35,295 nt of DNA from Clostridiales bacterium (lineage in GTDB: Bacteria > Bacillota > Clostridia > Oscillospirales > Oscillospiraceae). Positions 10,339 through 32,987 of this stretch are shown piece after piece; position 1 is the first letter of the stretch; every line of letters begins with the position of its first letter. Made by a program: the position numbers and the translations under genes. The DNA lies in assembly GCA_029010715.1 (NCBI GenBank), contig JAQXKZ010000035.1, positions 1-35,295 on the forward strand. Direction: 5' to 3'. The notes beneath the pieces are model-generated. The model was not told the origin of the DNA, did not search any database, and was given only the letters and a program-made list of their open reading frames with translations.

Positions 10339-10380
10339 GTCTTATGAGCACCCGTCTTTGGTCGGGGCCTTATTATTCTA
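10339..10380 (-). repeat. Terminator-like repeat, copy B, after the AraC-type gene
   Basis: Read on the minus strand it begins at the stop codon itself: TAGAATAATAAGGCCCCGACC, a loop, GGGTGCTCATAAGAC. It aligns with copy A over about 38 nt with a few differences. The conserved 15-bp box is 10339-10353. Confidence 0.75.
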
Positions 10381-11274
10381 GGTCTGCCTGTCACGCGCCT
10401 CACGGCTGCGCCTGAACTCGCTCGGGCTCTGCCGGGCTATCATGCGGAAGCTGCGGTTGAAGTTCGCAATATTGCTGAATCCGCAAAGCGTTGCTATCTC
10501 AGTGACCGTTCTGCCGCCCTCGTCCAGATATCTCATCGCCCGCTCTATGCGCTTTCCGTTCACATACCGCCATACCGATATGCCGTTCATCCTTTTGAAC
10601 ACTGTAGAAAAATAGCTGCGGCTCATTCCTGCCGCCTTCGCTATATCGTCCAGCGTCAGATCCGAGGAGATGTTTCTGTTTATATAACTCATCGCCTCGT
10701 CCAGCTGCTGCAGATATCTGCGCTGCTCCCTGTCCGGCGCCGCGCGCAGTATATCGTGGTATTCGCGGCCGAGCAGCGCGAGGATCAGCATCAGCTCCGC
10801 CTTTATCATCAGCTCATACTCCGGCGCGGCCTCGGTCCCCTCCCGGTAGATGCGCCGCAGCAGCTCCGATACCCGGCGTGCCGTGTCGGTCTCGCCGTCG
10901 AGCCTGTTGTTGAAGCTCTCGCCGTGGTTAAGGAAAATTCCGAGATAACGCGAATCGAACATGTCGCTGCCGGGCGACCAGATATACCGCGGCTCGAACT
11001 GGAGGTTCAGCAGCCTGAACGGCGCCGTGCCGTCCACGGCGGTGATATAGTGCTCCTCATCGCTGCCGAGTATCACTATATCGCCCTCGCGGCAGCGCAG
11101 CGGGGTGTGCCGAACCTGCCACTCACATCCCCCGGAAACTACCGCCGATATCTCCAGCTGAGTGTGGTGATGCTCGATATAGGGCCTGCTTCCGGGCTCG
11201 GCGTCGGAGAAAAACATCGTCAGTGTGGGGTGTCCGTCTCCGTCCCTCGCCAATATAATTTGTTTAGTTCTCAT
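10378..11274 (-). CDS. AraC-family transcriptional regulator with cupin sensor domain
   Basis: This is a DNA-binding regulator of 298 residues. The N-terminal half is a cupin-like sugar-sensing domain (YIEHHHTQLEISAVVSGG, then CREGDIVILGSDEEHYI). The C-terminal 100 residues carry two helix-turn-helix motifs of the AraC/XylS type (LTLDDIAKAAGMSRSYFSTVFKRMNG, then VTEIATLCGFSNIANFNRSFR, shown here in part). The ATG at 11274 is chosen because GGAGG lies 10 nt upstream; a longer frame to 11385 would run through the promoter. It diverges from the enolase-family dehydratase, with two AT-rich dyads between them, so it probably controls that operon in response to a sugar or sugar acid. Activation is the usual mode in this family. 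Confidence 0.92.
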   Translation of the reverse strand: MRTKQIILARDGDGHPTLTMFFSDAEPGSRPYIEHHHTQLEISAVVSGGCEWQVRHTPLRCREGDIVILGSDEEHYITAVDGTAPFRLLNLQFEPRYIWSPGSDMFDSRYLGIFLNHGESFNNRLDGETDTARRVSELLRRIYREGTEAAPEYELMIKAELMLILALLGREYHDILRAAPDREQRRYLQQLDEAMSYINRNISSDLTLDDIAKAAGMSRSYFSTVFKRMNGISVWRYVNGKRIERAMRYLDEGGRTVTEIATLCGFSNIANFNRSFRMIARQSPSEFRRSREARDRQT

Positions 11275-11319
11275 TTTATTCCAGCCTCCGGTTTTCGCAG
11301 TGATTTCAGGCTTTTCTCT

Positions 11320-11348
11320 ATTATGCCCGCTGTCGTCGAACTTTGCAA
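11320..11348 (-). promoter_or_regulatory. Promoter of the AraC-type regulator
   Basis: On the minus strand, TTGCAA (11343-11348) and CATAAT (11320-11325) are separated by 17 bp. The leader is about 40 nt with the SD GGAGG. Confidence 0.7.
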
Positions 11349-11380
11349 GATAAAAATATTTTATCATATATTCGGAATAT
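11349..11380. promoter_or_regulatory. Two adjacent dyads, candidate operators between divergent promoters
   Basis: GATAAAA-ATA-TTTTATC (11349-11365) and ATATTC-G-GAATAT (11368-11380) are perfect inverted repeats. They lie between the -35 box of the regulator gene and the -35 box of the dehydratase operon. A regulator bound here would touch both promoters. Confidence 0.55.
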
Positions 11381-11385
11381 TTCAT

Positions 11386-11489: not shown

Positions 11490-12833
11490 ATGAGTTTCAA
11501 CAAGTGTTCCTCACCCACCGAGCTGAAGATCACCGATATGCGCTTTGTGGACATTATCGACGCCCCCAAGCGCTGCACAATCATGAAGATCATTACCAAT
11601 CAGGGCATAGAGGGCTACGGCGAGGTCAGAGACGCCGCCAGCAAGACCTACGCTTTGATGCTCAAAAGCCGTATTCTCGGCGAAAACCCCTGCAACGTCG
11701 ATAAGATATTCCACAAGATCAAGCAGTTCGGCGGCGAATCCCGTCAGGGCGGCGGCGTCTCTGGCATTGAGATCGCGCTCTGGGATCTGGCCGGCAAGGC
11801 CTACGGCGTGCCCATGTACCAGCTGCTCGGCGGCAAGTACCGCGACGAAGTCCGCGTCTACGCCGACACCGACGTCGACGGCAAGCACACCGGCCACGAC
11901 ATGGGGCTGGCGCTCAAAAAGCGTATGGACATGGGCTTCACCTTCCTGAAGATGGACCTCGGCATCGGTCTGCTGCTCGATGAGCCCGGCACCATCAACG
12001 CCCCTCTCGGCTTCATAGACGATATGAAGAAGTATGCCTCTCACGTGCTCAACGCACAGGGCGGCAGTGTCACCGCCGACATGGTCAGGCATCAGAAGAG
12101 CTACCAGATCGTCACCACCGCCCATCCCTTCACCGGTATACAGATCACCGAGAAGGGCCTTGATTACCTCGAAAACTACGTCCGGGAAGTACGTGACGTC
12201 ATCGGCTATGAAGTGCCCCTCGCCATTGACCACTTCGGCCATGTCCAGCTTGAAAGCTGCATCCGCTTCTGCCGCCGCATGGAGAAATACAACCTTGCCT
12301 GGGTGGAGGACCTGGCTCCCTGGATATACACCGATCATTATGTCCGCCTGCGCAATTCGACCTGCATTCCCATCTGCACCGGCGAGGACATCTACCTCAA
12401 GGAAGGCTATGAAAAGCTCATCAGAGCCGGCGGCGTCTCCGTCGTCCATCCAGACATTCTGACCTGCGGCGGCGCTCTGGAGCTCAAGAAGATCGCCGAT
12501 ATAGCCGACGAAAACGGCGTTGCCGTCGCTGTACACATGGCCGAAAGTCCGATCGCCTGCATGGCCGCCGTGCACACGGCAGCCGCCATGCACAACGTCC
12601 TCGCCCTTGAATACCACTCCGTAGACATCCCCTGGTGGAGCGACATGGTCAACGGCCTGCCCCACCCTCTCATCAAGAACGGCTTCATAAAGGTCCCCGA
12701 GGCTCCCGGTCTCGGCATTGAGTCCCTCAACGAGGAGCTGCTCGCTTCCCACATCAACCCCGACATTCCGGGGATGTGGGAGCCTACCGACAGCTGGAAC
12801 ACCGAGTTCTCCAACGACCGTATCTGGAGCTGA
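11490..12833 (+). CDS. Enolase-superfamily sugar-acid dehydratase-like protein
   Basis: Proteins of this mandelate racemase/muconate lactonizing group abstract a proton alpha to a carboxylate, most often to dehydrate aldonic or aldaric acids. The capping domain ends in GIEIALWDLAGKAYGVPMYQLLGG (92-115, written in part). Likely metal ligands are D247 (AIDHFG), E273 (VEDLAPW) and E299 (TGED). D322 and H349 could form the His-Asp dyad. The second-strand motif is K154-x-D156, not the K-x-K of mandelate racemase. An insertion of about 50 residues (roughly 163-215) separates it from the first metal ligand. The substrate cannot be assigned. SD AGGAGGAT supports the start. It is followed by SDR and RraA-type genes, a coherent sugar-acid pathway. 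Confidence 0.87.
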   Translation: MSFNKCSSPTELKITDMRFVDIIDAPKRCTIMKIITNQGIEGYGEVRDAASKTYALMLKSRILGENPCNVDKIFHKIKQFGGESRQGGGVSGIEIALWDLAGKAYGVPMYQLLGGKYRDEVRVYADTDVDGKHTGHDMGLALKKRMDMGFTFLKMDLGIGLLLDEPGTINAPLGFIDDMKKYASHVLNAQGGSVTADMVRHQKSYQIVTTAHPFTGIQITEKGLDYLENYVREVRDVIGYEVPLAIDHFGHVQLESCIRFCRRMEKYNLAWVEDLAPWIYTDHYVRLRNSTCIPICTGEDIYLKEGYEKLIRAGGVSVVHPDILTCGGALELKKIADIADENGVAVAVHMAESPIACMAAVHTAAAMHNVLALEYHSVDIPWWSDMVNGLPHPLIKNGFIKVPEAPGLGIESLNEELLASHINPDIPGMWEPTDSWNTEFSNDRIWS

Positions 12834-12852
12834 TTACGGATAATTAATCCGG

Positions 12853-12881
12853 GGCTGCAGCGCGAAACTTCCGCTGCAGCC
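12853..12881 (+). terminator. Hairpin after the dehydratase gene
   Basis: GGCTGCAGCG (12853-12862) pairs with CGCTGCAGCC (12872-12881) around a 9-nt loop. The tail TCTGTTTC is only weakly T-rich, so this may be a partial terminator that sets dehydratase above SDR expression. Confidence 0.55.
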
Positions 12882-13047
12882 TCTGTTTCATAAAAGCAGA
12901 GAATAACACTTATATTCGCACCCGCTTTTTGTCATTGTGCAACGCCCATTGCATATAGTGAAATCATTTGACATATACGCGGCGGTGGTTGAAAATACAT
13001 TTATAATATGAAATTCGGTGTAAGTCTATATATTCAGGAGGGATAAA

Positions 13048-13800
13048 ATGTTTGATCTGCACGGTAAGACCGCACTGGTCACCGGTTCGAGCCGCGGCAT
13101 AGGCCGCTCGGCTTTGCTGACGCTGGCCTCTCACGGTGCCAGGGTAATAATGCACTGCAGCAAAGCAAGTCCAGCCGCCGACAAAGCCGTGGAGCTGCTG
13201 AAAGAGGCCGGCGCTGACTTCCATACCGTATATGCCGACCTTTCAGAGCTGGACGGAGCCGGGAAGCTTTACTCACAGGTTGAGTCCCTCGGCCTCAAAG
13301 TCGACATTCTCATGCTCAACGCGTCCATAGAGCTCCGACGTGAGTGGACAAAGATCACGGACGAAGAATACGATCTGCAGATGAACACCAATCTGCGCTC
13401 ACCCATAAAGCTGCTGCAGCTTTTTGTGCCCGGGATGAAGGAGCGCGGCTGGGGCCGTATCATCACCATGGGCAGCGTCCAGCAGGTCAAGCCCGTCGAC
13501 GCCATGCTCATATACTCCGCAAGCAAGAGCGCGCTCAGAAACGTCTCCCTGTCGCTCGCCATGCAGCTCGCCCCGTACGGGATAACCGTCAACAACATTG
13601 CCCCCGGCGCCATACGCACCGACAGGAATGCCGAGGCTCTGTCCGACCCCTCTTATGAGGAGCACGTCCGCAGTCTCATCCCCGTCAGATACATCGGCCG
13701 GCCTGACGATATAAGCGCTCTGGTCCTCTATCTGGCGTCCGAGGAGAGCAAATACATGACCGGACAGGATATTTACATTGACGGCGGCAAAGGTCTGTGA
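13048..13800 (+). CDS. Short-chain dehydrogenase/reductase, sugar-acid type
   Basis: This is a classical SDR of 250 residues. It has the nucleotide loop TGSSRGIG (12-19) with Arg at the position common in NADP users, the catalytic Ser143, Tyr156 and Lys160 (YSASK), N114, and the C-terminal motif TGQDIYIDGGKGL. The usual NNAG motif reads LNAS (90-93). Family members near gluconate 5-dehydrogenase and ketoacyl reductases oxidise or reduce sugar acids. Given the dehydratase before it and the aldolase-like gene after it, it probably interconverts a keto-deoxy acid or aldonate. The SD AGGAGGGATAAA is strong. No correctly spaced promoter is obvious in the 214-nt gap upstream, although TTGACA (12968) and TATAAT (13002) both occur. 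Confidence 0.92.
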   Translation: MFDLHGKTALVTGSSRGIGRSALLTLASHGARVIMHCSKASPAADKAVELLKEAGADFHTVYADLSELDGAGKLYSQVESLGLKVDILMLNASIELRREWTKITDEEYDLQMNTNLRSPIKLLQLFVPGMKERGWGRIITMGSVQQVKPVDAMLIYSASKSALRNVSLSLAMQLAPYGITVNNIAPGAIRTDRNAEALSDPSYEEHVRSLIPVRYIGRPDDISALVLYLASEESKYMTGQDIYIDGGKGL

Positions 13801-13866
13801 TATAAAACACGGGGCCCGCTCCCCGCTTATAATACGCGATCATAAATCATTATGGAGGCACATCAT

Positions 13867-14799
13867 ATGCGTTTTAATAACAGCGAAGACATAATTGCTC
13901 TGACCCCCGAATGGAAGGGTGAGCGTTTCCCCGACGGCCGCCCCAAGGTCCCCGACAAGTATCTGGATGCTCTGCGCGGTATGACCCTCGAGGAGCTGTG
14001 GAAGCCCATATTCGTCCAGGGCTATGAGAATCAGTTCCTTGAAATGCAGAGCCTGCATCCGGAATTCAAGGAAAACGGCGACCTCAACTGCAAGCTCATC
14101 GGCCGCGCTGTTACCGCCGCCTACGGCCCCACCCGCCCCGACTACTACGCCGCATCTATGGCGCAGGCCGAGGCCGAAGGCCGCACCGGCACCCCCAACC
14201 AGTGGGTCATTGACAGTCTGACCGACCGCGACGTCATTGTCGTCGACATGTTCGATAAGGTCTATAAGGGCACCTTCCTCGGCGGCAACCTTACCACCGC
14301 CATGAAGAACAAGACTCACACGGGCGGCGCCGTCATCTGGGGCGGTATCAGAGATATCGAACAGATGAAGAAGGTCGACGGCATTCAGGTCTACTACAGG
14401 GGAATCGACCCGACCCCGATAAGGAACTTCGCCATGATAAGCTTCAACGCCCCCGTGCGTCTCGGCAGCGGCGAACATGCCGCGATGTGCCTGCCGGGCG
14501 ATATCGTCTACGGCTGCAGCGGCGGCGTATTGTTTATTCCTCCCCATCTGGTCGTGGAGGTCGTCGAAAACGGCGCCAAGACTCAGGTCAAGGACATGTT
14601 CGGCTTTGAAATGATTACCGCCAACAGGTTCACCACCGCCCAGATCGACAGGAACACCTGGTCTGTTGAGATGCTGGACATGCTCATGGACTTCATAAGG
14701 ACCGATCCCAGAGCCGCCCAGTACCGCGATATCGACTGGAGCCATGAATATGACATGGCCATCAACGGAGATCCCAACGATACCCAGTCGGCGCTTTGA
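13867..14799 (+). CDS. RraA-family protein, probable aldolase-type lyase
   Basis: The 310-residue product carries an RraA/HMG-aldolase-like fold in its C-terminal two thirds. It shows GRAVTA, then LGGNLTTAMKNKTHTGG and VIWGGIRDIEQ, with the catalytic-type Arg162-Asp163 pair, then PGDIVYGCSGGVLFIPP. Members of this family are often annotated as dimethylmenaquinone methyltransferase or RraA, but many are divalent-metal retro-aldolases of keto acids. Position behind an acid-sugar dehydratase and an SDR favours an aldolase or keto-acid lyase role. The ATG at 13867 is preferred over the ATG at 13852 because GGAGG at 13854-13858 then stands 8 nt upstream. The N-terminal 70 residues are an extension beyond the minimal family. 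Confidence 0.87.
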   Translation: MRFNNSEDIIALTPEWKGERFPDGRPKVPDKYLDALRGMTLEELWKPIFVQGYENQFLEMQSLHPEFKENGDLNCKLIGRAVTAAYGPTRPDYYAASMAQAEAEGRTGTPNQWVIDSLTDRDVIVVDMFDKVYKGTFLGGNLTTAMKNKTHTGGAVIWGGIRDIEQMKKVDGIQVYYRGIDPTPIRNFAMISFNAPVRLGSGEHAAMCLPGDIVYGCSGGVLFIPPHLVVEVVENGAKTQVKDMFGFEMITANRFTTAQIDRNTWSVEMLDMLMDFIRTDPRAAQYRDIDWSHEYDMAINGDPNDTQSAL

Positions 14800-15426: not shown

Positions 15427-15470
15427 GCAAGCGCTCCCGAAAAGCTTTAAAGCTTTTCGGGAGCGCTTGC
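15427..15470. repeat. 44-nt perfect palindrome
   Basis: The two 22-nt halves, meeting between 15448 and 15449, are exact reverse complements with no loop. The left half begins GCAAGCGCTCCCGAAAAG. It lies in the gap between the convergent small membrane protein and the minus-strand operon end, so it can act as a terminator for either, though no T-tract follows on either side. Confidence 0.9.
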
Positions 15471-15494: not shown

Positions 15495-16526
15495 TTATTT
15501 TTTGAGTACTCTCCTGTAGTTGCGGCCTATGTTGTCCCACAGCTCTATAGGATCCTTCGCCGCGACGCTCGTGCCGAGGCCGCCGCGGTAGGTCCATGTG
15601 CCGAGACGGTCAACGCCGAGCTCCTCATACATGTCGACGACTCTGTCGATCTGGCTGAAGTCATCGGGCCTCTCGCTGTAGCCCATAAGCCAGCGCTCGG
15701 ACTCCTTGCCGTACTTTCTGGCGATAGCAACGGTGCGTTCGGTAATGCTGCGGAAGAAGCTCTCAGGCAGGCTCCACTTGATAATGGTGGTGGAAAACAC
15801 GTCAAAGTACGGGCAGGCGGCTACCATCTCCCAGTTGTCGTAGCCCCGCAGCTCGGTGACGTAGTAGCTGTTGAGCGTCGCGTGTACGCAGCAGGTGATC
15901 TCCAGCGACGGTTTGTATTCCTTGAGCGCCTTGGACACGCCTGCAAGCGTCTCCAGCGCCTCCCGCCAGCGAAACTGTTTGACGTCGTCGTTCATGAACC
16001 TCGGCATCTCATAGCCGTAGTAGGCTTCAAACTTCCTCATGCACTCGCTGCAGCGGCATGACCAGTCGTCTCCGGCGCCGCCTGTGATGGAGGCATAGGA
16101 CTTGGGATAGGCGTAGTGCGGCTCATCCCAGAAGAAACCGTCGACCTCGGTCTCGCGGGCGAGCTTCATGCAGATGCCCCTGAAATAGTCACGGAAGGAA
16201 TTGGTATTGAAGCAGGCGGCGTTGAGGACTTCCCCGGTGTACGCGGAGACCTGACGGTGGTGGATATTGTTCTGCAGGAAAAGGGATATCTGCTCGCCGC
16301 CGAAATACTTGCCTATGCCCCAGGTGTCGGCCAGCACACGCAGGCCCATCTCGTGGGCCTTGTCTACGATCAGCTTAATATTGGGGAACCAGAAGTCCAT
16401 GTCAAATTCCGTGATCGCGAGTATGACAGTGTCGCAGCCGTGCTCGAGCATCTCCTGAAAATCGCGTTCGGCGTTCTCAACATAATTGAGTCCGTAGTAG
16501 CTTATTGCGGTATGTTTGATTGCCAT
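15495..16526 (-). CDS. Glycosidase-like TIM-barrel protein, uncharacterised
   Basis: This is a 343-residue cytosolic protein with no signal peptide. It starts with a short strand and YYGLNYVENAERDFQEM, then shows beta/alpha repeats (CDTVILAITEFDM, GLRVLADTWGIGKYFGG). FFWDEPHYAYP (131-141) follows, with Asp134 and Glu135 as candidate catalytic acids, then a cysteine cluster CRCSECMRKFEAYYG (157-171). Such C-x-C-x2-C segments after an acidic strand end are seen in GH42-like and other hypothetical glycosidase barrels. The specificity is unknown and catalysis is inferred. It is the last gene of a six-gene operon with two SIS proteins, a sugar kinase and a Gfo/Idh oxidoreductase, so an intracellular sugar derivative is the likely substrate. 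SD AAGGAG is 7 nt from the ATG. Confidence 0.72.
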   Translation of the reverse strand: MAIKHTAISYYGLNYVENAERDFQEMLEHGCDTVILAITEFDMDFWFPNIKLIVDKAHEMGLRVLADTWGIGKYFGGEQISLFLQNNIHHRQVSAYTGEVLNAACFNTNSFRDYFRGICMKLARETEVDGFFWDEPHYAYPKSYASITGGAGDDWSCRCSECMRKFEAYYGYEMPRFMNDDVKQFRWREALETLAGVSKALKEYKPSLEITCCVHATLNSYYVTELRGYDNWEMVAACPYFDVFSTTIIKWSLPESFFRSITERTVAIARKYGKESERWLMGYSERPDDFSQIDRVVDMYEELGVDRLGTWTYRGGLGTSVAAKDPIELWDNIGRNYRRVLKK

Positions 16527-16536
16527 GCTTTTCTCC

Positions 16537-17613
16537 TTATCTGTTCAGGTATACGGGCTTGCCGGTGTAGATGGATTCGTAGCAGCGTACCATGGCCTCG
16601 ACCGTCTGGCGGTGCCACCGGAGGTTGATTTTGGGCTGCTTGTTGTTGAGGATACAGTCACAGAACTCGTCCATCATGCCTATCCACTCGTCGAAGTAGG
16701 TGTACTGGACTGCGTAGCGGTTGTTAGGTCCGCCGCAGTAGCTGTCGTTCGGGCCGAAGCAGTCGGCCTGTATTATCCCCTCGGTGCCGACAATGGAGAA
16801 ATTGACCTCCATGCGTTTCGGGTGCAGATCCCAGTTTATGGGTACCTTTGTCTTTGCCTCGTGGCGGGACCAGGACGGGTCAAGCAGGAACTTGCAGCCG
16901 TTCTTCATGCGCCCGGTTACATAGACGACGTCCTCTTCGCGTATATCGCGGATATTGTCGGCGACATCCGCGTAAACGTAATCATAATCGCTGCCGGTGA
17001 CCCACCGGAGCATATCGAAGATGTGCGGGTGGTCGCTGAGCGCGCCTCCGCGGCAGCGCTTGTCGCCCTCCCTGAGAGGGATGGCCTTGCCGTAGCTGAT
17101 CTCCGGGTCGCCCTGCCACGGGAACGCCCAGACCGGAGAAAGTGTTATGTTCGTCGCGTTGAAGGAGATGATGTCGCCTATCTCGCCGCTGCGGGCAAGC
17201 TCCAGCGCACGCGTGCAGGTCGGATTGTAGTGCATCTCCAGCTCGACCTGACAGATGACGCCGGCCTCGTCGACCATTTTTATCATGCGGTCGTACTCCT
17301 CGAGATCGAAGGTCGGTATCTTCATGGACAGCATGTGCTTGTGGTATTTGCAGCACAGCTCCATGTCCCCGTAGTGGCGGAAGTTCTCGCTCGCTATAAT
17401 TACGCCGTCTATCTCCGGGTGTTCTGCGAGCATCTGCTCGGTGCTGCGGTAAATGGGCACATCGTAGCCGTAGTCGCGGAAGTTCTTTTCGACCTCATCT
17501 GTAGCGCAGGAAACCGCCACCCAGTTGATCTTATTGTTGTCGTGAAGCGTCTGGTAATATTTGCGCACGTGTGCGTGTGTAAGGGACGCTATAGCAAGAT
17601 TTACCTGTCTCAT
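16537..17613 (-). CDS. Gfo/Idh/MocA-family oxidoreductase
   Basis: The product has 358 residues: an N-terminal Rossmann half and a C-terminal substrate half. The nucleotide loop is atypical, LAIASLTHAHVRKYY, with no glycine run. The usual E-K-P motif reads M-K-I-P, keeping the Lys (98). The catalytic-type D-x2-H-x2-D is present in GGALSDHPHIFDML. These features place it in the family, with an unusual cofactor site. Members oxidise or isomerise sugars, often with tightly bound NAD. The ATG at 17613 is chosen over the in-frame GTG at 17622 because GGAGGA, located in the end of the upstream gene, lies at the right distance. The gap to the upstream stop is 5 nt, so translation is coupled. Confidence 0.88.
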   Translation of the reverse strand: MRQVNLAIASLTHAHVRKYYQTLHDNNKINWVAVSCATDEVEKNFRDYGYDVPIYRSTEQMLAEHPEIDGVIIASENFRHYGDMELCCKYHKHMLSMKIPTFDLEEYDRMIKMVDEAGVICQVELEMHYNPTCTRALELARSGEIGDIISFNATNITLSPVWAFPWQGDPEISYGKAIPLREGDKRCRGGALSDHPHIFDMLRWVTGSDYDYVYADVADNIRDIREEDVVYVTGRMKNGCKFLLDPSWSRHEAKTKVPINWDLHPKRMEVNFSIVGTEGIIQADCFGPNDSYCGGPNNRYAVQYTYFDEWIGMMDEFCDCILNNKQPKINLRWHRQTVEAMVRCYESIYTGKPVYLNR

Positions 17614-17618
17614 GTTCT

Positions 17619-18398
17619 TCACTCCTCCACCGCGGCGTTGCTCAGCGTACTGCTGGCCTTCACCGCGGCCGCATAGACTTTCTCCATGTGCGCATAGTCG
17701 TCTCTGAGCTGCCCTATACGCGTCTCGTCCGTCAGAGCCCAGAGGATGAAGCGTATGCAGTCTGCCTGCGTGTTGTTCATCCCGTAGAGCTCGAAGTCGA
17801 TCTCGTTGTATTTCTCTGTCTTTTCACCCTTGAACACATATATCGGGTACTGGACGGTCTGAATATCGACCGGCAGATCGGAGGCTATACCGGTGCGTGC
17901 GACCACCTCGTGCAGCAGCACAGGCTCGCTGCCGTCAGGCAGGAAGCCCAGCTCCATGCTGGCCTTTACGTTGTTGCTCGCGGACATTATGCAGTTGGTG
18001 TATACCTCGCCGCTGAAGTCGGCGAAAACGTGGTCGATGCGCGCTCTTGTCACGAATTCAAAGAGGTTCGCTTCAAAAACCATTATGTCCTTGAGCGTGC
18101 GGGTGAACTCATCATGCTGCACCATGTGGTGTATACGCATCGCGAGCGCCGGCTCGACCATGCGGCGGTCGATAAGGCCGCGCAGCTGTATGTACTTTTG
18201 CTGGGCCTGCCAGTGGAACAGAGGCGTGTTGATCCACTCGTCCTGCGGCAGCTCTTTGTTGAAGTCGTAGAAGAAGCGAAACGCCCCCTTGCTGCACTTT
18301 ACCTTTACCGCGCCCTCCTCAGGAATTACGCAGAGCTCTTCGGCGGCTCTGTACTTCTCTGCCAGTTCAAGCAGTTTCGGGATAAACTCTTTCTCCAT
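17619..18398 (-). CDS. Uncharacterised 259-aa protein of the SIS/kinase operon
   Basis: I do not recognise a family. The protein is soluble and mixed alpha/beta, rich in charged and aromatic residues. It has an N-terminal helix (EFIPKLLELAEKYRAAEEL) and a helical middle with conserved-looking R-x-H-H-M-x-Q-H-D-E (87-98). The C-terminal half has a strand and loop IQTVQYPIYVFKGEKTEKYNE before two helices. It could be a distant partner of the Gfo/Idh protein, because it resembles such proteins in size and is directly coupled upstream of one, but no Rossmann loop is visible. It starts 12 nt after the SIS gene, with SD AAGGAG. It is probably an enzyme or enzyme subunit acting on the operon's substrate. 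Confidence 0.75.
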   Translation of the reverse strand: MEKEFIPKLLELAEKYRAAEELCVIPEEGAVKVKCSKGAFRFFYDFNKELPQDEWINTPLFHWQAQQKYIQLRGLIDRRMVEPALAMRIHHMVQHDEFTRTLKDIMVFEANLFEFVTRARIDHVFADFSGEVYTNCIMSASNNVKASMELGFLPDGSEPVLLHEVVARTGIASDLPVDIQTVQYPIYVFKGEKTEKYNEIDFELYGMNNTQADCIRFILWALTDETRIGQLRDDYAHMEKVYAAAVKASSTLSNAAVEE

Positions 18399-18410
18399 CT
18401 GTTCTGCTCC

Positions 18411-19166
18411 TTACAGCATTTTGATTCTGGGACTGTATTTTTCCAGATTCTTCTTGTTGAACTCGTCGCCGCCGGGCACGTTGGCGCTGCGCCAGAACGG
18501 GGGCTCCACCCCTCTTGCAAGGCAGCTCTTCGCGCACTCTATCTCGAGGCGGTGTACGATGTAAAAGTCGGTCATATTGGATATCGGTCCTATCGGCGTG
18601 TCAAAGCCGTCGAGTTTGACGACCGTGTCGCCCAGCGGGTTATAGTCGTCGATGCATACGTCGGCAAAGTCGAACAGGTTCTTATGCGAGGGGTGGCGCA
18701 GCTCGTAGTCCTTCGGGATGTTCTCCTGCCAGTCGGAGGAGGACACCGCGATTATCTTCACGCCGCGTTCCTTTGCCTCCATTGCCGCGTCTATGGTAGC
18801 GGCGTTGGTGCCGATGTTGTGGTAGATAATCAGCACGTCGTCCTTACGCAGATCGTAGTAATCCATTATAGCGCGGCCGTAGTTGACGCAGCGCTCCAGC
18901 GCGAGGTACTTCTGCGCCTGATTGAATACGGACAGCCCCGTCTCCATGCATGGGTTGATATTGCACAGTCCGCCCGCGCGGAAGAACATCTCTCCGACAG
19001 GCAGCGTCGTGTGTCCGCCTCCGCCGTAGACGTTTATGAGCCGGTCGTTCGCTATGGCGTCGGCCATCAGCTCCGCTGCGGCTTTGATGTTGGCATACTG
19101 CTCAGTCTCTATCTTGTTGAGCAGCTCGATCACTTTCGGAAGGTAGCCGTTGGAATTGTCAGTCAT
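18411..19166 (-). CDS. SIS-domain protein with altered phosphosugar loops
   Basis: This 251-residue protein is of the UPF0309-like SIS type. SIS domains bind phosphosugars and catalyse isomerisation or related reactions. It shows VYGGGGHTTLPVGEMFFRAGGL (in part near 47-68) and ends in EPPFWRSANVPGGDEFNKKN, both typical of the group. However, the loop that binds the sugar phosphate, S-T-S-G-V-N in its paralogue at 20195-20926, reads Y-H-N-I-G-T-N, and the G-H-S of the first loop reads G-H-T. Binding may therefore differ or be lost. The ATG at 19166 is chosen for SD AAGGAGA; an upstream in-frame ATG at 19232 would overlap the kinase gene. It may form a heteromer with its paralogue. Confidence 0.88.
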   Translation of the reverse strand: MTDNSNGYLPKVIELLNKIETEQYANIKAAAELMADAIANDRLINVYGGGGHTTLPVGEMFFRAGGLCNINPCMETGLSVFNQAQKYLALERCVNYGRAIMDYYDLRKDDVLIIYHNIGTNAATIDAAMEAKERGVKIIAVSSSDWQENIPKDYELRHPSHKNLFDFADVCIDDYNPLGDTVVKLDGFDTPIGPISNMTDFYIVHRLEIECAKSCLARGVEPPFWRSANVPGGDEFNKKNLEKYSPRIKML

Positions 19167-19228
19167 TTTCTTCTCCTTTTCTTTACCATCCGTTGACGGG
19201 TATACTCTGTCAGGCGTGTGAGCTCCTG

Positions 19229-20185
19229 TCAACCGATGCTGCCATCATTGAGTAACGGCCGGATATCAATCCGGGCATATGCTTTATCCAGTTCCGCCCT
19301 GTACGGCAGAGCCGGCATGACATATCTTTTTCTCACGCTGAGGGACGCCGCGTTTACCGCGTATTCGACCGCCGCGGCAAGGTCCACTCCCGCGGCCAGC
19401 TTCACCGCAAGCGCGCCGTTAAAGCAGTCTCCCGCGCCCGTCGTGTCGACCGCGCTGCCCTTCGCCGCCGGCAGCAGATACATTCTGTCCCCGTCGAGCA
19501 CAGCCGCGCCGTCCCCGCCCAGGGTTACCGCCGCGCGCCTGATACCGAGCCTCCTGAAGCCCTCCAGAAGCTCCGCCGGCCCGCTGTCCTCCGGTATTCC
19601 GAGCAGCTGCGCGGCCTCGATACGGTTCGGCGTGATCACCGCGAAGCGTCTAAGAAGCTCCGCGTCCATGGGCTCTGCCGGGGCCGGATTAAGCAGCGCC
19701 GGTACGCCGTGCTTTTCTGCCAGCCCGAGCGCCGTGATTACGGCCTCTGCCGGACACTCGTTGTTCAGCATCAGCATATCCGCGCCGCCTATAAGCGTCT
19801 CCCGGCTCCTGACGAACGCGGGCGACAAACAGTCCGCGGCGCCGCGGTAGACCGTGACCCGGTTCTCTCCGCCGCTGTCAGTCAGGATACAGGCATACGG
19901 GCTGTTCTCACGGTCCGTGTACTCCGTGACAGGCGTTATACCCTCATCCGAGAGAAACTGCACGCACTGCCGCGCCGCGTCATCGCGCCCCATACAGGAG
20001 ATGAAGCTCACCTGTGCGCCGAGCCTTGCCGCCGCGACCGCCTGGTTGCAGCCCTTGCCGCCGGGTTCGGTGTAGAGTCCGCCGGCCTTCAGCGTCTCGC
20101 CCGGTCCGTGGAAATGATCCACGCTCATGAATACCGAGCTGCCCGCGAGGCCGAGCACAACGATCTTCGGTCCGTCCTTTTTCAT
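19229..20185 (-). CDS. PfkB-family sugar kinase, ribokinase-like
   Basis: This kinase phosphorylates a sugar or sugar acid with ATP. It has both PfkB signatures: GGKGCNQAVAAARLG near residue 42-56 and DTTGAGDCFNGALA near 247-260, with the catalytic Asp in GAGD. NPAPAEP and ITPNRIEAAQLLG are also ribokinase-like. The length (318) is normal. The ATG at 20185 gives 7-nt spacing to GAGG; an ATG two codons earlier at 20191 is only 1 nt from it. It is flanked by the two SIS genes and starts within 12 nt of the first, so they are translated together. Kinase plus phosphosugar isomerases implies that an unphosphorylated sugar enters the cell, consistent with a TRAP transporter. The substrate is not readable. 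Confidence 0.93.
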   Translation of the reverse strand: MKKDGPKIVVLGLAGSSVFMSVDHFHGPGETLKAGGLYTEPGGKGCNQAVAAARLGAQVSFISCMGRDDAARQCVQFLSDEGITPVTEYTDRENSPYACILTDSGGENRVTVYRGAADCLSPAFVRSRETLIGGADMLMLNNECPAEAVITALGLAEKHGVPALLNPAPAEPMDAELLRRFAVITPNRIEAAQLLGIPEDSGPAELLEGFRRLGIRRAAVTLGGDGAAVLDGDRMYLLPAAKGSAVDTTGAGDCFNGALAVKLAAGVDLAAAVEYAVNAASLSVRKRYVMPALPYRAELDKAYARIDIRPLLNDGSIG

Positions 20186-20194
20186 ATACATACC

Positions 20195-20926
20195 TCAGAG
20201 ACTCGCTATGCGTCCCTTGTAGCGCTCGATGAGCTCCCTGTTTTTCTCCGCGCCGCCGGGCACATTGCCGCTGGCATATACCGGGGGCTTTATTCCCTTA
20301 TCCAGCAGCAGCTGTGCCGCTTCGGCCATGACGCTGTTTATGATATAGGTACTCGCCACCGTTGACACCGGGGTCATCTTCATGCCGAGTCCCGCGGGTT
20401 CAAGGCAGGCGTCGCCGTGGGGCGCGCCGTTGTCTATGCAGACGTCGCAGACCTCCTGCAGATGCTTCCCCAGCCTGTTCCCCGCTGCCTGCGTCAGATA
20501 GGCGTCAGACGAGATACCGACAACCGGAATGCCTCTTTTCCGGACCGCGTCCGCGAATTCGACCGGCACGGCGTTCACCCCGGAGGTGGACGCGCATATG
20601 AGCATATCCTTTTCTCCGATGCCGCATCCCTCCAGCACCTTTTCCGCAAGTCCCTCGGCTTTCTCCAGACGGCTGCTCTCCGACGCGCTCTCATGCAGCA
20701 TCAGCGGCTCATAGAATACCGGGCATACGCATCCCAGACCGCCCGCGCGGTAAAAGGTCTCCTCGGCGAGCATGTGTGAATGACCGCAGCCGAAAACATA
20801 AGCCATACCGCCTCGCCCGATCGCCTCAGACAGCAGCAAAGCAGCAGAAAGAATCCTGTCTTTCTGCGTACTTCTTATATATTCAATGGTGTCGGTCAGC
20901 ACTGCCGCGTATTCGTCCATAAGCAT
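20195..20926 (-). CDS. SIS-domain phosphosugar protein, UPF0309-like
   Basis: The 243-residue product matches the UPF0309-type SIS pattern closely: YVFGCGHSHMLAEETFYRAGGL (first part near 43-64), LMLHESASESSRLE, the phosphate-binding loop CASTSGVNAVPVE, DVCIDNGAPHGDA and the C-terminal PPVYASGNVPGGAEKN. It is probably an isomerase, deaminase-like or etherase-like enzyme on a phosphorylated (amino) sugar. It is the first gene of the operon running down to 15495. A hairpin with 11-bp arms (20958-20988) lies just upstream. No well-spaced promoter is clear between it and the transporter operon. Confidence 0.92.
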   Translation of the reverse strand: MLMDEYAAVLTDTIEYIRSTQKDRILSAALLLSEAIGRGGMAYVFGCGHSHMLAEETFYRAGGLGCVCPVFYEPLMLHESASESSRLEKAEGLAEKVLEGCGIGEKDMLICASTSGVNAVPVEFADAVRKRGIPVVGISSDAYLTQAAGNRLGKHLQEVCDVCIDNGAPHGDACLEPAGLGMKMTPVSTVASTYIINSVMAEAAQLLLDKGIKPPVYASGNVPGGAEKNRELIERYKGRIASL

Positions 20927-21160: not shown

Positions 21161-21196
21161 ATCTCCGGTAAAAAGCAGACGCTTTTTACCGGAGAT
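21161..21196 (-). terminator. Strong hairpin terminating the TRAP operon
   Basis: The arms ATCTCCGGTAAAAAGC (21161-21176) and GCTTTTTACCGGAGAT (21181-21196) are perfect over 16 bp with a 4-nt loop. It begins 5 nt past the dctM stop. There is no free T-tract, but there is a T5 run inside the stem. Confidence 0.8.
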
Positions 21197-24673: not shown

Positions 24674-24714
24674 TCATAATGACAAACGGAGATGTACAGT
24701 CAGGAGACCGCCGA

Positions 24715-25470
24715 ATGATTAAATCAGTAAAAAAAGCCATGGATATCCTAACCATTCTCTCCGCCAACGCCGAAGAGCCCATCACGCTCAGCGAGCTTGC
24801 GGAAAAAACAGGGATGAACAAATCTACCTGCGTGCACATTGTGGACACCATGTGCGAGTCTTTCTATGTTGAGCGCGTCTCGCGCAAGGAGGGCTACCGT
24901 CTCGGTCCCTGGGCATATATGCTCTCGCGCTACGGCAGCTATCACAACTCGCTGACCAAGATATCCGTCTCGGTCCTCAAATGGCTGCATAAGCAGACCT
25001 GCGCCACCGTGTTCATATCGGTTCTCTGCAACGGGCGCAAATACATTGTCTACCATATAGACGACGACAATATCCTGCCCATGAGCGACGGCTCGATGAT
25101 ACAGGGCTATATTGAGACCACCGCCACCGGCCGTCTCCTGCTCGCCTCGCTCGACGCCGAGGCCTTTCATTATACGATCAGCCGCCGCACCGCTGACGAG
25201 ACCTATTCACGTTTTGAGTTTACCCAGGAGCTGAAGGACGAGCTCAAAAGCATCCGTACCAACGGCTACGCCCACGTCTCCGTCGACGTGCAGCAGACCC
25301 AGTCCTTTGCCTTCCCTGTCCATGACAGCTCGCGCGTGGTTGCGGCTCTCGGCATACTGTATTCCAACGATCTGGACACTCCGGAGTACCGCGCCAAGAT
25401 CATGAAGGCCGGCCGCACCGCCGCCAACGAGATCAGCCGCCGCCTTTCCTTCAAACAGGCAGTCATATAA
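24715..25470 (+). CDS. IclR-family transcriptional regulator
   Basis: The 251-residue regulator has an N-terminal winged helix-turn-helix (VKKAMDILTILSAN, ITLSELAEKTGMNKSTCVHIVDTM) and a C-terminal IclR effector domain (GRKYIVYHIDDD, TATGRLLLASL, TNGYAHVSVDVQQTQSFAFPV in part, ALGILYSND). IclR proteins sense small organic acids and usually control an adjacent operon. It diverges from the TRAP operon, so the transported acid or a metabolite is the expected effector. The ATG at 24715 is chosen because AGGAGA lies 7 nt upstream; the in-frame ATG at 24679 coincides with the predicted transcript start. A hairpin follows the stop. Confidence 0.94.
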   Translation: MIKSVKKAMDILTILSANAEEPITLSELAEKTGMNKSTCVHIVDTMCESFYVERVSRKEGYRLGPWAYMLSRYGSYHNSLTKISVSVLKWLHKQTCATVFISVLCNGRKYIVYHIDDDNILPMSDGSMIQGYIETTATGRLLLASLDAEAFHYTISRRTADETYSRFEFTQELKDELKSIRTNGYAHVSVDVQQTQSFAFPVHDSSRVVAALGILYSNDLDTPEYRAKIMKAGRTAANEISRRLSFKQAVI

Positions 25471-25557: not shown

Positions 25558-26517
25558 TTATCCCGGCAGTATCGACCATGGCCGCTTCACGGCAAAGCGG
25601 CTCACCGGTTCCGCTCCTACACAGTCCCCGGCCCGGAACACGTATATCATATTCCCCGTCTCATCGGCGCAGAGGAGCCAGTCTCCCACTATGTTTATCT
25701 CGCGCAGTGACGCTCCCTGTGCGCAGCGTACCCACCCGGCCGGAGACAGCTCCGCCCCGTCAACGTTGTACACGCAGACACTGCCGTGCCCGCGGTTTGA
25801 AACATACAGCGTTTTTCCGTCCGCCGACATCCGTATCGCCGCCGCCGAGTTTTCGCCGCCAAAGCCGTCCGGGAGCGTTGAATACCTGTGCCGCAGCTCA
25901 AGCCTGCCCCCGGAATACTCCAGCGCGGCTGTCTCGGAGCATAGCTCCAGCGAGCACCACGCGAAGCGCCCGTCCTTTGAAAACAGCATGTGCCTGGGCC
26001 CGCTTCCCGCTTTGAATTCCAGCTCCGATACCCGCTCCAGCTCCGGGGTACATACATATATTCTGTCCGCGCCGAGGTCGCAGATGCACACATGCTTTCC
26101 GTCGGGCGCCGGTACCGTGCAGTGCGGATGCGAGCACTCCTGTCTCGGATCCGGGCCCCTGCCCCCGAAGGCTATCAGTCTGTCCGGCATCAGCGTGACC
26201 GTTCCGCTCAGGTAGTTCGCGCTGTACAGCCTGCCTTTCCATGGCAGTAAGTGTGCCGCAACGGTCCCGTGTACTGGCATAATCTCCCCCTTGCGGCGCA
26301 GTTTTCCGTCCGCTCCCGTCTCAAATTCCGCTATCCCGCTCTGCATCATGAACGGTTCGCGCATAAGAGCATAAAGCCTGTTCCCGGCTGAAGCCAGCCA
26401 TGCCACGCGGTCCAGAGGATAGAAGTCTCTCTGCCGGACACAGCCCTGTGCGTCTATGGCGCAGCGCAGTATTCCTCCGTCCCTGTCCTGTGAAGCCACG
26501 TAAAACTCTCTGTCCAC
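25558..26517 (-). CDS. Lactonase-family beta-propeller (6-phosphogluconolactonase-like)
   Basis: This 319-residue cytosolic protein has repeated blades of the seven-bladed lactonase family (YkgB/Pgl type). Typical blade motifs are LYSANYLSGTVTLMP, HPHCTVPAPDGKHVCICDLG (in part), GPRHMLFSKDGRFAW, and TLYVSNRGHGSVCVYNVDG. Such enzymes open aldonolactones, here perhaps unphosphorylated sugar lactones. The start is a GTG 4 nt after the uxuA stop, with GGAGG inside the end of uxuA, so the two are co-expressed from the promoter at 27561-27589. The partner dehydratase suggests a path from sugar lactone to aldonate to keto-deoxy acid. The family also includes muconate cyclases, so the chemistry is not certain. 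Confidence 0.88.
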   Translation of the reverse strand: MDREFYVASQDRDGGILRCAIDAQGCVRQRDFYPLDRVAWLASAGNRLYALMREPFMMQSGIAEFETGADGKLRRKGEIMPVHGTVAAHLLPWKGRLYSANYLSGTVTLMPDRLIAFGGRGPDPRQECSHPHCTVPAPDGKHVCICDLGADRIYVCTPELERVSELEFKAGSGPRHMLFSKDGRFAWCSLELCSETAALEYSGGRLELRHRYSTLPDGFGGENSAAAIRMSADGKTLYVSNRGHGSVCVYNVDGAELSPAGWVRCAQGASLREINIVGDWLLCADETGNMIYVFRAGDCVGAEPVSRFAVKRPWSILPG

Positions 26518-26521
26518 AGGC

Positions 26522-27484
26522 TCAGTCCTCCAGCGAGCCGGCCATCTCCATCAGACCTCTTAGATAGCCTATAGCGAACAGCCTTCCGACGCTCCCGTAG
26601 CCCGGGTGCTCCGCGTCTTCCCCGGCCATCGCCGGTACATGATCCACGCGCACGTAGCCGTGATAGCCGATATCGCGGTATGCCCTGACCGCCGCGGCCA
26701 TATCCGTCGGTCCGTTGTCGTGGAAAGTCTCATGGAAGCGGTATTTGTCTCCTCTTGTGTCCCTGAAGTGCACAAAATTGATCCTATCCCCGAAGCGGCG
26801 TATACACTCGACGACGTCCTCGCCCATGGCCTGAAAGCTGCCCTGGCACATCGTGATGCCCATGTTTGGGCTCGGCACCAGATTCACCGCCCGCTCCATC
26901 GCGTCGGCGCTGGTCAGTATGCGGCTGACCCCTCGTATCTCCGGCACCGGCGGGTCGTCCGGATGCAGCGCCAGCCTGACCCCGGCCTCCTCCGCGACGG
27001 GTACTATCGCCCTCTGCATGTATTCGAGGTTTTCCCAGAGCTGCCCTGCGCTTATCACCCCGGCCTCCGTGAGCTCCGGAGCGTCAAACTTTGAGTGGTC
27101 GTATTCGCTCACAAGCGCGCCGCCGCGCTCCGGATAGTCGAAGCTCGTGCGCGTCCAGCCAAAGTGCGCCATGAAGTTGTAGCAGAGCACCTCTATACCG
27201 AGTCTGCCCATATTGCGTATGAGTGTGCACATGGTCTCTATCTCCTCGTCACGCCCCGGCAGGCCCTGCTTTATTTTCTGGTTGGGCGGGGCCGGCTCGA
27301 TTATTTTCAGCCGGAAGCCTCGCTCTTCAAAATGCTCCTTCATCGCCTTGAGCTTCCCGTAGCTGCCCGCGATCTCATTCATATGTCCGTCTATCATGCG
27401 TCCGTCGGCATAACGTATACCCAGCTGAGAGGCATAGTCCCACTGCCTGTCCGGAGTATAGTAAAAGAAATCCGCTATTTTCAA
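26522..27484 (-). CDS. uxuA: Mannonate dehydratase (UxuA family)
   Basis: The UxuA family dehydrates D-mannonate to 2-keto-3-deoxygluconate in hexuronate breakdown. The 320-residue TIM barrel shows LCYNFMAHFGWTRT (100-113), LALHPDDPP with His174, MCQGSFQAMG with Cys213, NFVHFRDTRGD with His239, FHETFHDNG and VRVDHVP with Asp281. The Cys, His and Asp positions are those expected for the family's divalent metal site. It is somewhat shorter than the classical 350-390-residue enzymes, so a related aldonate is also possible. The start is TTG at 27484; no nearby ATG fits the frame, and the SD is poor (GGCGGA). A consensus promoter with an operator lies upstream. No kdgK or kdgA with a clear identity is in the window. 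Confidence 0.88.
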   Translation of the reverse strand: MKIADFFYYTPDRQWDYASQLGIRYADGRMIDGHMNEIAGSYGKLKAMKEHFEERGFRLKIIEPAPPNQKIKQGLPGRDEEIETMCTLIRNMGRLGIEVLCYNFMAHFGWTRTSFDYPERGGALVSEYDHSKFDAPELTEAGVISAGQLWENLEYMQRAIVPVAEEAGVRLALHPDDPPVPEIRGVSRILTSADAMERAVNLVPSPNMGITMCQGSFQAMGEDVVECIRRFGDRINFVHFRDTRGDKYRFHETFHDNGPTDMAAAVRAYRDIGYHGYVRVDHVPAMAGEDAEHPGYGSVGRLFAIGYLRGLMEMAGSLED

Positions 27485-31425: not shown

Positions 31426-32877
31426 TCAAAGACCTGCGTCCAGAGCATCGGCTCTGTCAAGCAGCATCTGAACGAACTCGTCGTTCCAGATACCGGTAAA
31501 GTGAAGCAGGTCAATAACGGAAAAGCGGTTGCGCATAAGATGGCAGTTTGTAATGGCCCACCTGACCGTCTCAGCGTCGACCGGGAAGTTCAGCCGGCTG
31601 TAGCGGCAGGGAGCGTTTGCCCTGTGCATGCATGACGCAATGTATTCGGGCTTTTTGACCCACGGGGCGACACGCGCTTTGAAGGTATCAAAGTCTCTGA
31701 GAAACGCTTCAAATTTGTCGCGGTTTTCCGTCCAGGAGGCAAGCTTTTTCTGATAATCAGCCCAGCATTCGTCCGAGGCCGAGCCGGTGTCATCGAGCCA
31801 TGCGAAAGCGGCCTTCACCTTGGGCTCCATATCTTCAGCCGTCGGATAGCAGCGGTCAATATCGACCGACTTCGGGTCGAACTCGTTGAGCAGATAATCC
31901 CATATAATGCATGATATTATGCCGGAAACCGCGACCTGTGTGCCGTGGTAGCATATACCGGTATGCCGCACCTTGGATGCCATATCTATAAGATGGCTCA
32001 TGACGTGCTCCGACCCGGAGGCCGGGGAGCTCTCGTCGGCCAAACCCATTGACAAGCCGCTGAGAGTAAGCACATTTGCCAGATCTCCCAGCACCCTGCT
32101 GTCGCCGGCAGCGAGTTTACCGGAATTTTCAAGCAGTTCCTCGCACTGAGTCCGGATCATGTCGGACGGCGCGGTATGGAAATTCTTCCCGATGCCGAGA
32201 ACATTTGCCAGATACCAGTCGACGGGTGCCGTCCATGTTGCTATCAGGTCGCCGTAGCCGCTTACGTTCATCTCCGCCGGAGCCGCGCCGATAATATCCA
32301 TATCGATTATAAGTATCAGCGGGTAGCGTGAATGTACCGTGCGCTTGACGCCGTTGAAAAGCATGACGGAAGAATTGTCGGAAAACGCGTTGACGGAGAG
32401 CGCCGTCTGAACTATGACAAGCGGCAGTGGATTTTCCTTGTCATAGTAATATGTGGAATACTTGCACAGATCGCATATGGTACCGCCCCCTATGCCTACC
32501 ACGCAGTCTGCGCCTTCAAAATGTTCCTGGATTTTTGCAGCATTCTCCGGGGTGGCATGAACTATGCTGTCAGGCTCGGAGATCACGAGCCATTCCACAT
32601 CGAACTGTTCCCTGAGAAAGGCGTATATCCTTTCCTTGATATTTCTGCCGGCAGTATCTGCAATCTCCGTCGGGCCTGTAACCATAAGAACCCTGCGTCC
32701 GTCCGTCAGCGCTTTTACCGCCTCGCATACTCTGGCCGATTCGCCGTGGCCAATGCATATTTTTTTCATTCCGATGCTGCAAAGCCTTTCGGACTCTTCC
32801 TGCTCCATAAGGATTTCGTGCAGTTCGTCAAGCCTGGTTGCGTCGGCTCTTGCCAGACGAGTATCAATCATTATCAT
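31426..32877 (-). CDS. Glycerol-1-phosphate dehydrogenase family protein, paralogue 1
   Basis: This 483-residue protein belongs to the family of glycerol-1-phosphate, glycerol and dehydroquinate enzymes (EgsA/AraM branch of iron-type alcohol dehydrogenases). The nucleotide loop is GIGGGTICDLCKY (128-140). The expected metal ligands are Asp210 (SGYGDLIATW), His291 (SGSEHVMSH) and His311 (CYHGTQVA). It probably reduces or oxidises a phosphorylated three-carbon or sugar substrate with NAD(P). It is longer than classical EgsA (about 350-400), with extra segments at both ends. An in-frame ATG two codons in, at 32871, is better spaced to GGGGA. Last gene of its operon; only distantly like the neighbour at 32988-34229. 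Confidence 0.87.
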   Translation of the reverse strand: MIMIDTRLARADATRLDELHEILMEQEESERLCSIGMKKICIGHGESARVCEAVKALTDGRRVLMVTGPTEIADTAGRNIKERIYAFLREQFDVEWLVISEPDSIVHATPENAAKIQEHFEGADCVVGIGGGTICDLCKYSTYYYDKENPLPLVIVQTALSVNAFSDNSSVMLFNGVKRTVHSRYPLILIIDMDIIGAAPAEMNVSGYGDLIATWTAPVDWYLANVLGIGKNFHTAPSDMIRTQCEELLENSGKLAAGDSRVLGDLANVLTLSGLSMGLADESSPASGSEHVMSHLIDMASKVRHTGICYHGTQVAVSGIISCIIWDYLLNEFDPKSVDIDRCYPTAEDMEPKVKAAFAWLDDTGSASDECWADYQKKLASWTENRDKFEAFLRDFDTFKARVAPWVKKPEYIASCMHRANAPCRYSRLNFPVDAETVRWAITNCHLMRNRFSVIDLLHFTGIWNDEFVQMLLDRADALDAGL

Positions 32878-32987
32878 TCCCCATTCTGCCGCTCAAGTAT
32901 TCAGCGCAGCCGGAAGATGCGGCCACGTAAGCGGCCAACCGTGGCTTTCCTGACTGCGCTGCGGTATGAATGTGAGCCAGCGCGAGC

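Follow-up and report, generated by a model that had tools for sequence, protein, structure and literature searches.

This analysis concerns six genes in a 35,295-nucleotide stretch of DNA (the window) from a Clostridiales bacterium (assembly GCA_029010715.1, contig JAQXKZ010000035.1). They lie head-to-tail on the minus strand, from position 20926 to position 15495. In order of reading they encode an SIS protein (SIS1, 20195..20926), a ribokinase-like sugar kinase of the PfkB family (19229..20191), a second SIS protein (SIS2, 18411..19166), a protein of 259 amino acids (U259, 17619..18398), a Gfo/Idh/MocA oxidoreductase (GFO, 16537..17622) and a barrel protein of 343 amino acids (15495..16526). 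The gene set is real, conserved and uncharacterised. An earlier interpretation based on the DNA letters (the sequence-only reading) had reported this run, and all six open reading frames (ORFs) are present on the minus strand within 15495-20926. It had also given gaps of 3 to 62 nt. The packing is indeed tight (3, 62, 12, -4 and 10 nt from SIS1 to the barrel gene), but U259 and GFO overlap by 4 nt, or lie 5 nt apart if the downstream ATG of GFO is used. GFO, 361 amino acids long from its GTG, may start at that ATG (position 17613, 358 amino acids). For SIS2, the ATG at 19166 is more likely the start than the TTG at 19232 of the ORF list because an AGGAG, noted by eye, sits just upstream. As judged by their spacing, the six genes probably form one transcription unit.

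Four of the six proteins are named by Pfam or NCBIfam; for U259 neither database gives a row, and for the barrel protein there is only a chance row. The labels of the sequence-only reading (SIS, kinase, SIS, unknown, Gfo/Idh, glycosidase-like barrel) agree with the matches to SIS_2 and PRK02947 (twice), PfkB and Gfo/Idh/MocA and with a modelled GH42-like barrel, whereas "unknown" can be refined to a modelled Gfo/Idh fold. The NCBIfam rows of the window proteins include BT_2158_fam and BT_2159_fam, names that reportedly stem from work on Bacteroides BT2157-2160.

Distribution and arrangement in relatives

Loci of relatives are given L-numbers and their genomes G-numbers; gene presence was read by tblastn with the window proteins. 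Database searches matched 177 proteins with U259 (219 after a profile search) and 495 with the barrel protein. A scan of named genomes with U259 gave four loci (L002-L005) among 63 pattern matches, and U259 is present in two of 60 relatives with the window's own genome counted (G000 and G029). Among 391 genomes of the class, 21 have barrel profile matches, 12 above 200 bits (one of them, in G230, cut at a contig end) and nine weaker. With the same settings U259 is found in 10 of the 391, all within the 12 close-barrel genomes; the chance of this overlap is 3e-18 when computed as if genomes were independent, which related genomes are not. GFO (E 1e-60) and U259 are present in the identical nine of 14 genomes, a sample comprising 11 of the 12 close-barrel genomes and three with weaker barrels.

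The arrangement varies. All six genes are matched in L002, L004 and L005. The order in L005 is TRAP transporter, SIS1, PfkB, a divergent IclR gene, SIS2, barrel, U259, GFO, a GH20-like gene and an ABC transporter; L004 resembles it, with the TRAP genes farther away and inverted. L003 also matches all six, but there the SIS2-, SIS1- and PfkB-like genes and the end of a barrel lie at a distance of about 8 kb or more from U259-GFO. The short stretch L006 of G029 holds PfkB, SIS2, U259, GFO and a partial barrel, and a 33% SIS match lies at the expected SIS1 place in that genome (C42:3958-4665). SIS2, U259, GFO and the barrel occur in L037, L038 and L039, on stretches without SIS1 or PfkB. The L036 stretch has the barrel and SIS2, with U259-GFO on a different contig, and L031 and L034 have SIS1, PfkB, U259, GFO and the barrel and lack SIS2. 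Two modules are thus seen: module B (SIS2, U259, GFO and barrel) and module A (SIS1 and PfkB, sometimes with TRAP). U259, GFO and the barrel are the most constant members. Because relatives hold the genes together, the grouping is not due to chance, which upholds the earlier claim that the genes belong together; the operon, which was to be looked for in other genomes, is found there, as two modules and with no universal set of genes.

A GH20-like gene adjoins the set or lies within 2 kb of it in nine of 17 places (L003, L004, L005, L030, L033, L034, L036, L039 and L040), of which L004 and L005, being closely related, ought to count only once. None is nearby in the window, L002, L006, L031, L032, L035, L037 or L038; three of the 17 places (L006, L035 and L040) are represented by short or truncated stretches. 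GH20 is present in 101 of the 391 genomes of the class versus 11 of the 12 close-barrel genomes (2e-6, uncorrected for relatedness). L003 and L037 hold NAGLU-type genes, and L038 a sulfatase gene. Further genes nearby give no hint of aminosugars: GH88, RGL11-type and Antibiotic_NAT genes in L033 and GH113 in L036. The substrate is probably an imported, aminosugar-containing compound, which the neighbouring genes do not fix. At L030:3191-5034, genes for a zinc alcohol dehydrogenase and for a protein of the ribulose-phosphate 3-epimerase family lie near GFO, with a DeoR-like gene (by eye) between.

Predicted properties of the encoded proteins

GFO scores above the Pfam cut-offs for PF01408 (34 bits, cut-off 24), PF22725 (52.9, 27) and PF02894 (31.8, 22.9). 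The PF01408 match begins at profile position 18. Residues K98, D194 and H197 (numbered from ATG 17613), which we take to be the catalytic positions of the Gfo/Idh family, are invariant in 11 aligned relatives. GFO may use nicotinamide adenine dinucleotide (NAD).

U259 gave only chance rows in a sequence search of the PDB. Its predicted structure, a check proposed with the sequence-only reading, has a Gfo/Idh fold, but the protein is not long enough to include the NAD-binding half. The C-terminal domain fold matches the family, and by eye some 55 residues (a helix, then hairpin strands) precede it in place of a Rossmann domain. Homologues of 222-231 amino acids have even less before the C-terminal part; the range of the fold alignment nonetheless starts at residue 1. 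PF22725 appears below its cut-off in two of seven homologues (E 0.012 and 0.044). U259 lies immediately before GFO in 15 of 15 places. Because of the modelled fold, the lack of room for the NAD-binding half and this constant position, U259 is read as a putative non-catalytic partner of GFO from which the cofactor-binding half has apparently been lost. The likeness could instead have arisen by chance or from a general alpha/beta layout, U259 being an independent enzyme or regulator. An hhalign profile comparison with GFO was not significant; of the seven homologues, four have no Pfam row and one has an unrelated one (E 0.023). U259 also diverges faster than its neighbours (50-58% versus 76-87% for GFO in L002-L006). 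Given the modelled fold and the position next to GFO, an unrelated U259 is considered improbable.

The barrel protein has no Pfam row, a single NCBIfam row (E 0.29; 9.7 bits, cut-off 420) and only chance rows in a PDB sequence search. Its model is a TIM barrel of the clan GH-A type whose closest folds are GH42, which bears out the glycosidase-like barrel of the sequence-only reading. D134-E135-P136-H137 after strand 4 and C157xC159xxC162 are invariant. E135 occupies the position of the acid/base glutamate after strand 4, an assignment made by strand order and not by residue alignment to GH42. In the aligned homologues no invariant acidic residue directly follows strand 7 (275-281), so there is no conserved nucleophile glutamate at that place; D289, eight residues past the strand, comes close to invariance, and D294 does not vary within the close set but does beyond it. 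A GH3 gene lies directly before a distant barrel homologue (29%) at L041:105-2710.

These features bear on whether the barrel protein is an ordinary hydrolase, that is, an inverting or substrate-assisted glycosidase, with GFO/U259, SIS2, PfkB and SIS1 converting the freed monosaccharide and no redox-assisted cleavage taking place. In favour of this explanation are the GH42-like fold, with its D-E behind strand 4, and the GH20-like neighbours; substrate-assisted enzymes, GH20 among them, likewise use a D-E pair in that position. Ordinary hydrolysis is nevertheless doubtful because the retaining-nucleophile position directly ending strand 7 is not conserved as an acidic residue; in addition, L033 and L036 have a GH20-like gene, whereas the window needs an explanation free of GH20. 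On balance this alternative is rated as somewhat unlikely.

Both SIS proteins belong to the PRK02947/UPF0309 family (NF002805, cut-off 135), with 274.8 bits for SIS1 and 227.3 for SIS2, and both also match SIS_2. Their solved-structure matches are 3cvj and 9eol, the latter being NagS, an N-acetylglucosamine-6-phosphate (GlcNAc-6P) dehydratase that is the closest solved relative of SIS2 and the second closest of SIS1. The ligand and catalytic residues of NagS are H53, S54, R64, S91, E94, S119, S121, D179 and N228 (PMC12680351). Of 26 aligned rows, two in the wrong frame were dropped, leaving 11 for SIS1 and 13 for SIS2; the L002 and L036 rows, labelled SIS1 through match naming, were counted as SIS2. 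All nine residues are common to NagS and SIS1 and are retained in 11 of 11 SIS1 rows. SIS2 retains H53, R64, E94, D179 and N228 and lacks S54, S91, S119 and S121, which are T54, L or I91, H119 and I121 in all 13 rows (T54, L91, H119 and I121 in the window protein). Given this difference at the phosphate site, NagS-like binding of a phosphosugar is to be expected of SIS1 alone, and the residue pattern hints at an unphosphorylated sugar as the substrate of SIS2. The NagS report also states that remote homologues, clostridial ones among them, did not dehydrate GlcNAc-6P (PMC12680351).

The best NCBIfam row of the PfkB kinase is ribokinase (259.8 bits, below the cut-off of 299.65). The identity of an SIS gene as N-acetylmuramic acid (MurNAc) 6-phosphate etherase was set aside, as PRK02947 was matched instead; no by-name comparison with a MurQ model was made. 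The sulfo-Embden-Meyerhof-Parnas and Amadori-product pathways combine SIS and PfkB proteins; they too were set aside, as the six-gene run has no aldolase gene and both SIS proteins are PRK02947.

A possible pathway and its nearest known counterparts

From the gene content, co-occurrence, predicted folds and residue patterns computed here, we tentatively propose, as the most likely explanation, a catabolic operon of two modules, in which an imported sugar compound would undergo redox-assisted cleavage, in addition to a phosphorylation step. In module B, GFO with NAD would oxidise a hydroxyl (at C3, by analogy with the family) of an imported glycoside that probably contains an aminosugar. U259, a predicted Gfo/Idh fold without a Rossmann domain, would pair with GFO through its C-terminal sheet and help to build the substrate site. 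The GH42-like barrel could then cleave the activated bond with D134 and E135 as acid and base and no covalent nucleophile. SIS2 would work on the freed, unphosphorylated open-chain sugar. In module A, the TRAP transporter encoded upstream would import a substrate, PfkB would phosphorylate a sugar and SIS1 would work on the phosphosugar; this order of reactions is presumed. The sequence-only reading had suggested redox-assisted cleavage followed by phosphorylation and isomerisation. The gene set fits that scheme in outline, but it falls into two modules and its SIS proteins are split at the phosphate site.

Several observations weigh against the proposed pathway. In 13 aligned sequences S-L/M-T-H-x-H stands where the N-terminal glycine motif of GFO would be. 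In five hhalign runs (three U259 alignments, local and global) U259 and GFO showed no significant relation, with P values of 0.028, 0.052, 0.075, 0.035 and 0.79. Genomes G156 and G230 hold a close barrel without GFO or U259, and SIS2 is absent from G442 and G242, the genomes of L031 and L034, where the SIS2 query matches only the SIS1 place (34-37%); for these reasons no fixed set is universal. Apart from the window, TRAP is seen to accompany the gene set in just two places, L004 and L005. The window's own genome has no GH20. Among eight aligned GH20-like proteins (the L030 protein lies outside the alignment) six keep the D-E pair, and two have D-K at that place after the strand (L033:6306-7667 and L036:7037-8401) and so are perhaps not hexosaminidases. 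Distant barrel homologues (about 24-25%) at L042:3600-4643 and L044:4725-5762 sit among housekeeping genes; they adjoin RimP/NusA-type genes (by Pfam in L042, by eye in L044), and the wider barrel family may therefore have another role. The NagS report states that the S54A, S119A and S121A variants remained functional in vivo (PMC12680351), so that loss of the phosphate serines is no proof of lost phosphate use.

No characterised pathway with this gene set was found in a literature search that covered titles and the starts of abstracts and left most subscription journals outside its coverage; within that scope, the earlier claim that no described pathway matches stands. The levoglucosan pathway of Bacillus smithii proceeds by oxidation, elimination, hydration and reduction in the part of the description available (PMC7676230). 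It resembles the proposed pathway in that a Gfo/Idh-type dehydrogenase begins the intracellular cleavage of a sugar ether or glycosidic bond, and that part of the description mentions neither a partner resembling U259 nor a GH42-like barrel, an SIS gene or a PfkB gene. Levoglucosan dehydrogenase is among the fold matches of the U259 model, and GFO scores 35.4 bits against the levoglucosan dehydrogenase family (cut-off 650). The 3-keto-glycoside beta-eliminases and C-glycoside eliminases of the AtOGE type are also TIM barrels that cleave a sugar oxidised at C3 by another enzyme. In these enzymes, residues that follow strands 5 to 8 form a Mn2+ site (PMC10628242), whereas the window barrel has GH42 as its closest folds and D134-E135 and CxCxxC instead. 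It also differs from GH42 beta-galactosidases, which are about 650-700 amino acids long, in its 343 amino acids, in having no Pfam match and in lacking a conserved glutamate ending strand 7. NAD-dependent Gfo/Idh glycosidases (such as the sulfoquinovosidases 8qc3 and 8zn9) share their fold with the GFO family and the U259 model. To go by their titles, these are single glycosidases, whereas the window seems to divide oxidation and cleavage among several proteins.

Redox-assisted cleavage of glycosides is a fairly recent subject in carbohydrate biology. We regard it as unlikely, though conceivable, that the window encodes a new form of it, namely oxidoreductive cleavage by a Gfo/Idh enzyme that forms a heteromer with a partner subunit lacking the Rossmann domain, a GH42-fold lyase or hydratase without a nucleophile, and an SIS protein without the phosphate site that acts on an unphosphorylated, probably aminosugar, substrate. 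If so, the work of a Gfo/Idh enzyme would be divided between an active and a cofactor-less subunit and a glycosidase fold would be used without its nucleophile, which would widen the known parts for redox-assisted cleavage; and the families of U259 and the barrel, neither of which has a Pfam name here, would gain a function. The residue split between SIS1 and SIS2 makes action of this SIS subfamily on unphosphorylated sugars directly testable.

Genes and signals around the run

A complete TRAP transporter is encoded on the same strand upstream of the six genes (24381-21202): the solute-binding protein DctP (PF03480, 23296..24381), the small membrane subunit DctQ (PF04290, 22488..23072) and the large membrane subunit DctM (PF06808, 21202..22491). 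The gene of an IclR-family regulator (24679..25470, plus strand) is divergent from DctP. DctM and SIS1 are 275 nt apart. Because of this distance and of a perfect 16-bp inverted repeat inside the gap (loop of 4, 21161..21196), co-transcription of the six genes with the TRAP genes is left unproven; the repeat is possibly an attenuator or a processing site. A perfect 44-nt palindrome with no T-run following (15427..15470) starts 24 nt past the barrel stop. Promoter-like sites (9 versus 5.1, sd 2.3, in shuffles) and terminator-like sites (12 versus 9.7, sd 3.6) are not clearly above expectation.

Several genes within 15 kb would fit a route through sugar acids. A seven-bladed lactonase (25558-26517) and a UxuA-type mannonate dehydratase (26522-27484) are encoded in tandem on the minus strand (25558-27484), upstream of the IclR gene. 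An enolase-superfamily dehydratase (11490-12833), an SDR protein (13048-13800) and a 315-residue RraA-like protein (13852-14799) are encoded in a row on the plus strand (11490-14799), possibly as a separate sugar-acid operon, adjoined by the gene of an AraC-type regulator (10378-11385, minus strand). GFO could thus be an aldose or sugar-acid dehydrogenase forming a lactone, with the lactonase, mannonate dehydratase, enolase-family dehydratase and RraA-like protein finishing the route and the barrel a side activity. The best NCBIfam row of GFO, inositol 2-dehydrogenase (well below its cut-off), with D-xylose 1-dehydrogenase also listed, favours such a route, and TRAP importers often carry acids. 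However, tblastn in L002-L006 and L030-L045 found no lactonase, mannonate dehydratase, enolase-family or RraA-like gene near the set and only SDR-like matches of 27-28% in L032 and L038; the conserved partners of GFO are the barrel, U259 and SIS2 instead. A sugar-acid route is accordingly thought quite unlikely. Two adjacent proteins like iron-containing alcohol dehydrogenases of the Fe-ADH_2 type are encoded at 31426-34229 on the minus strand.

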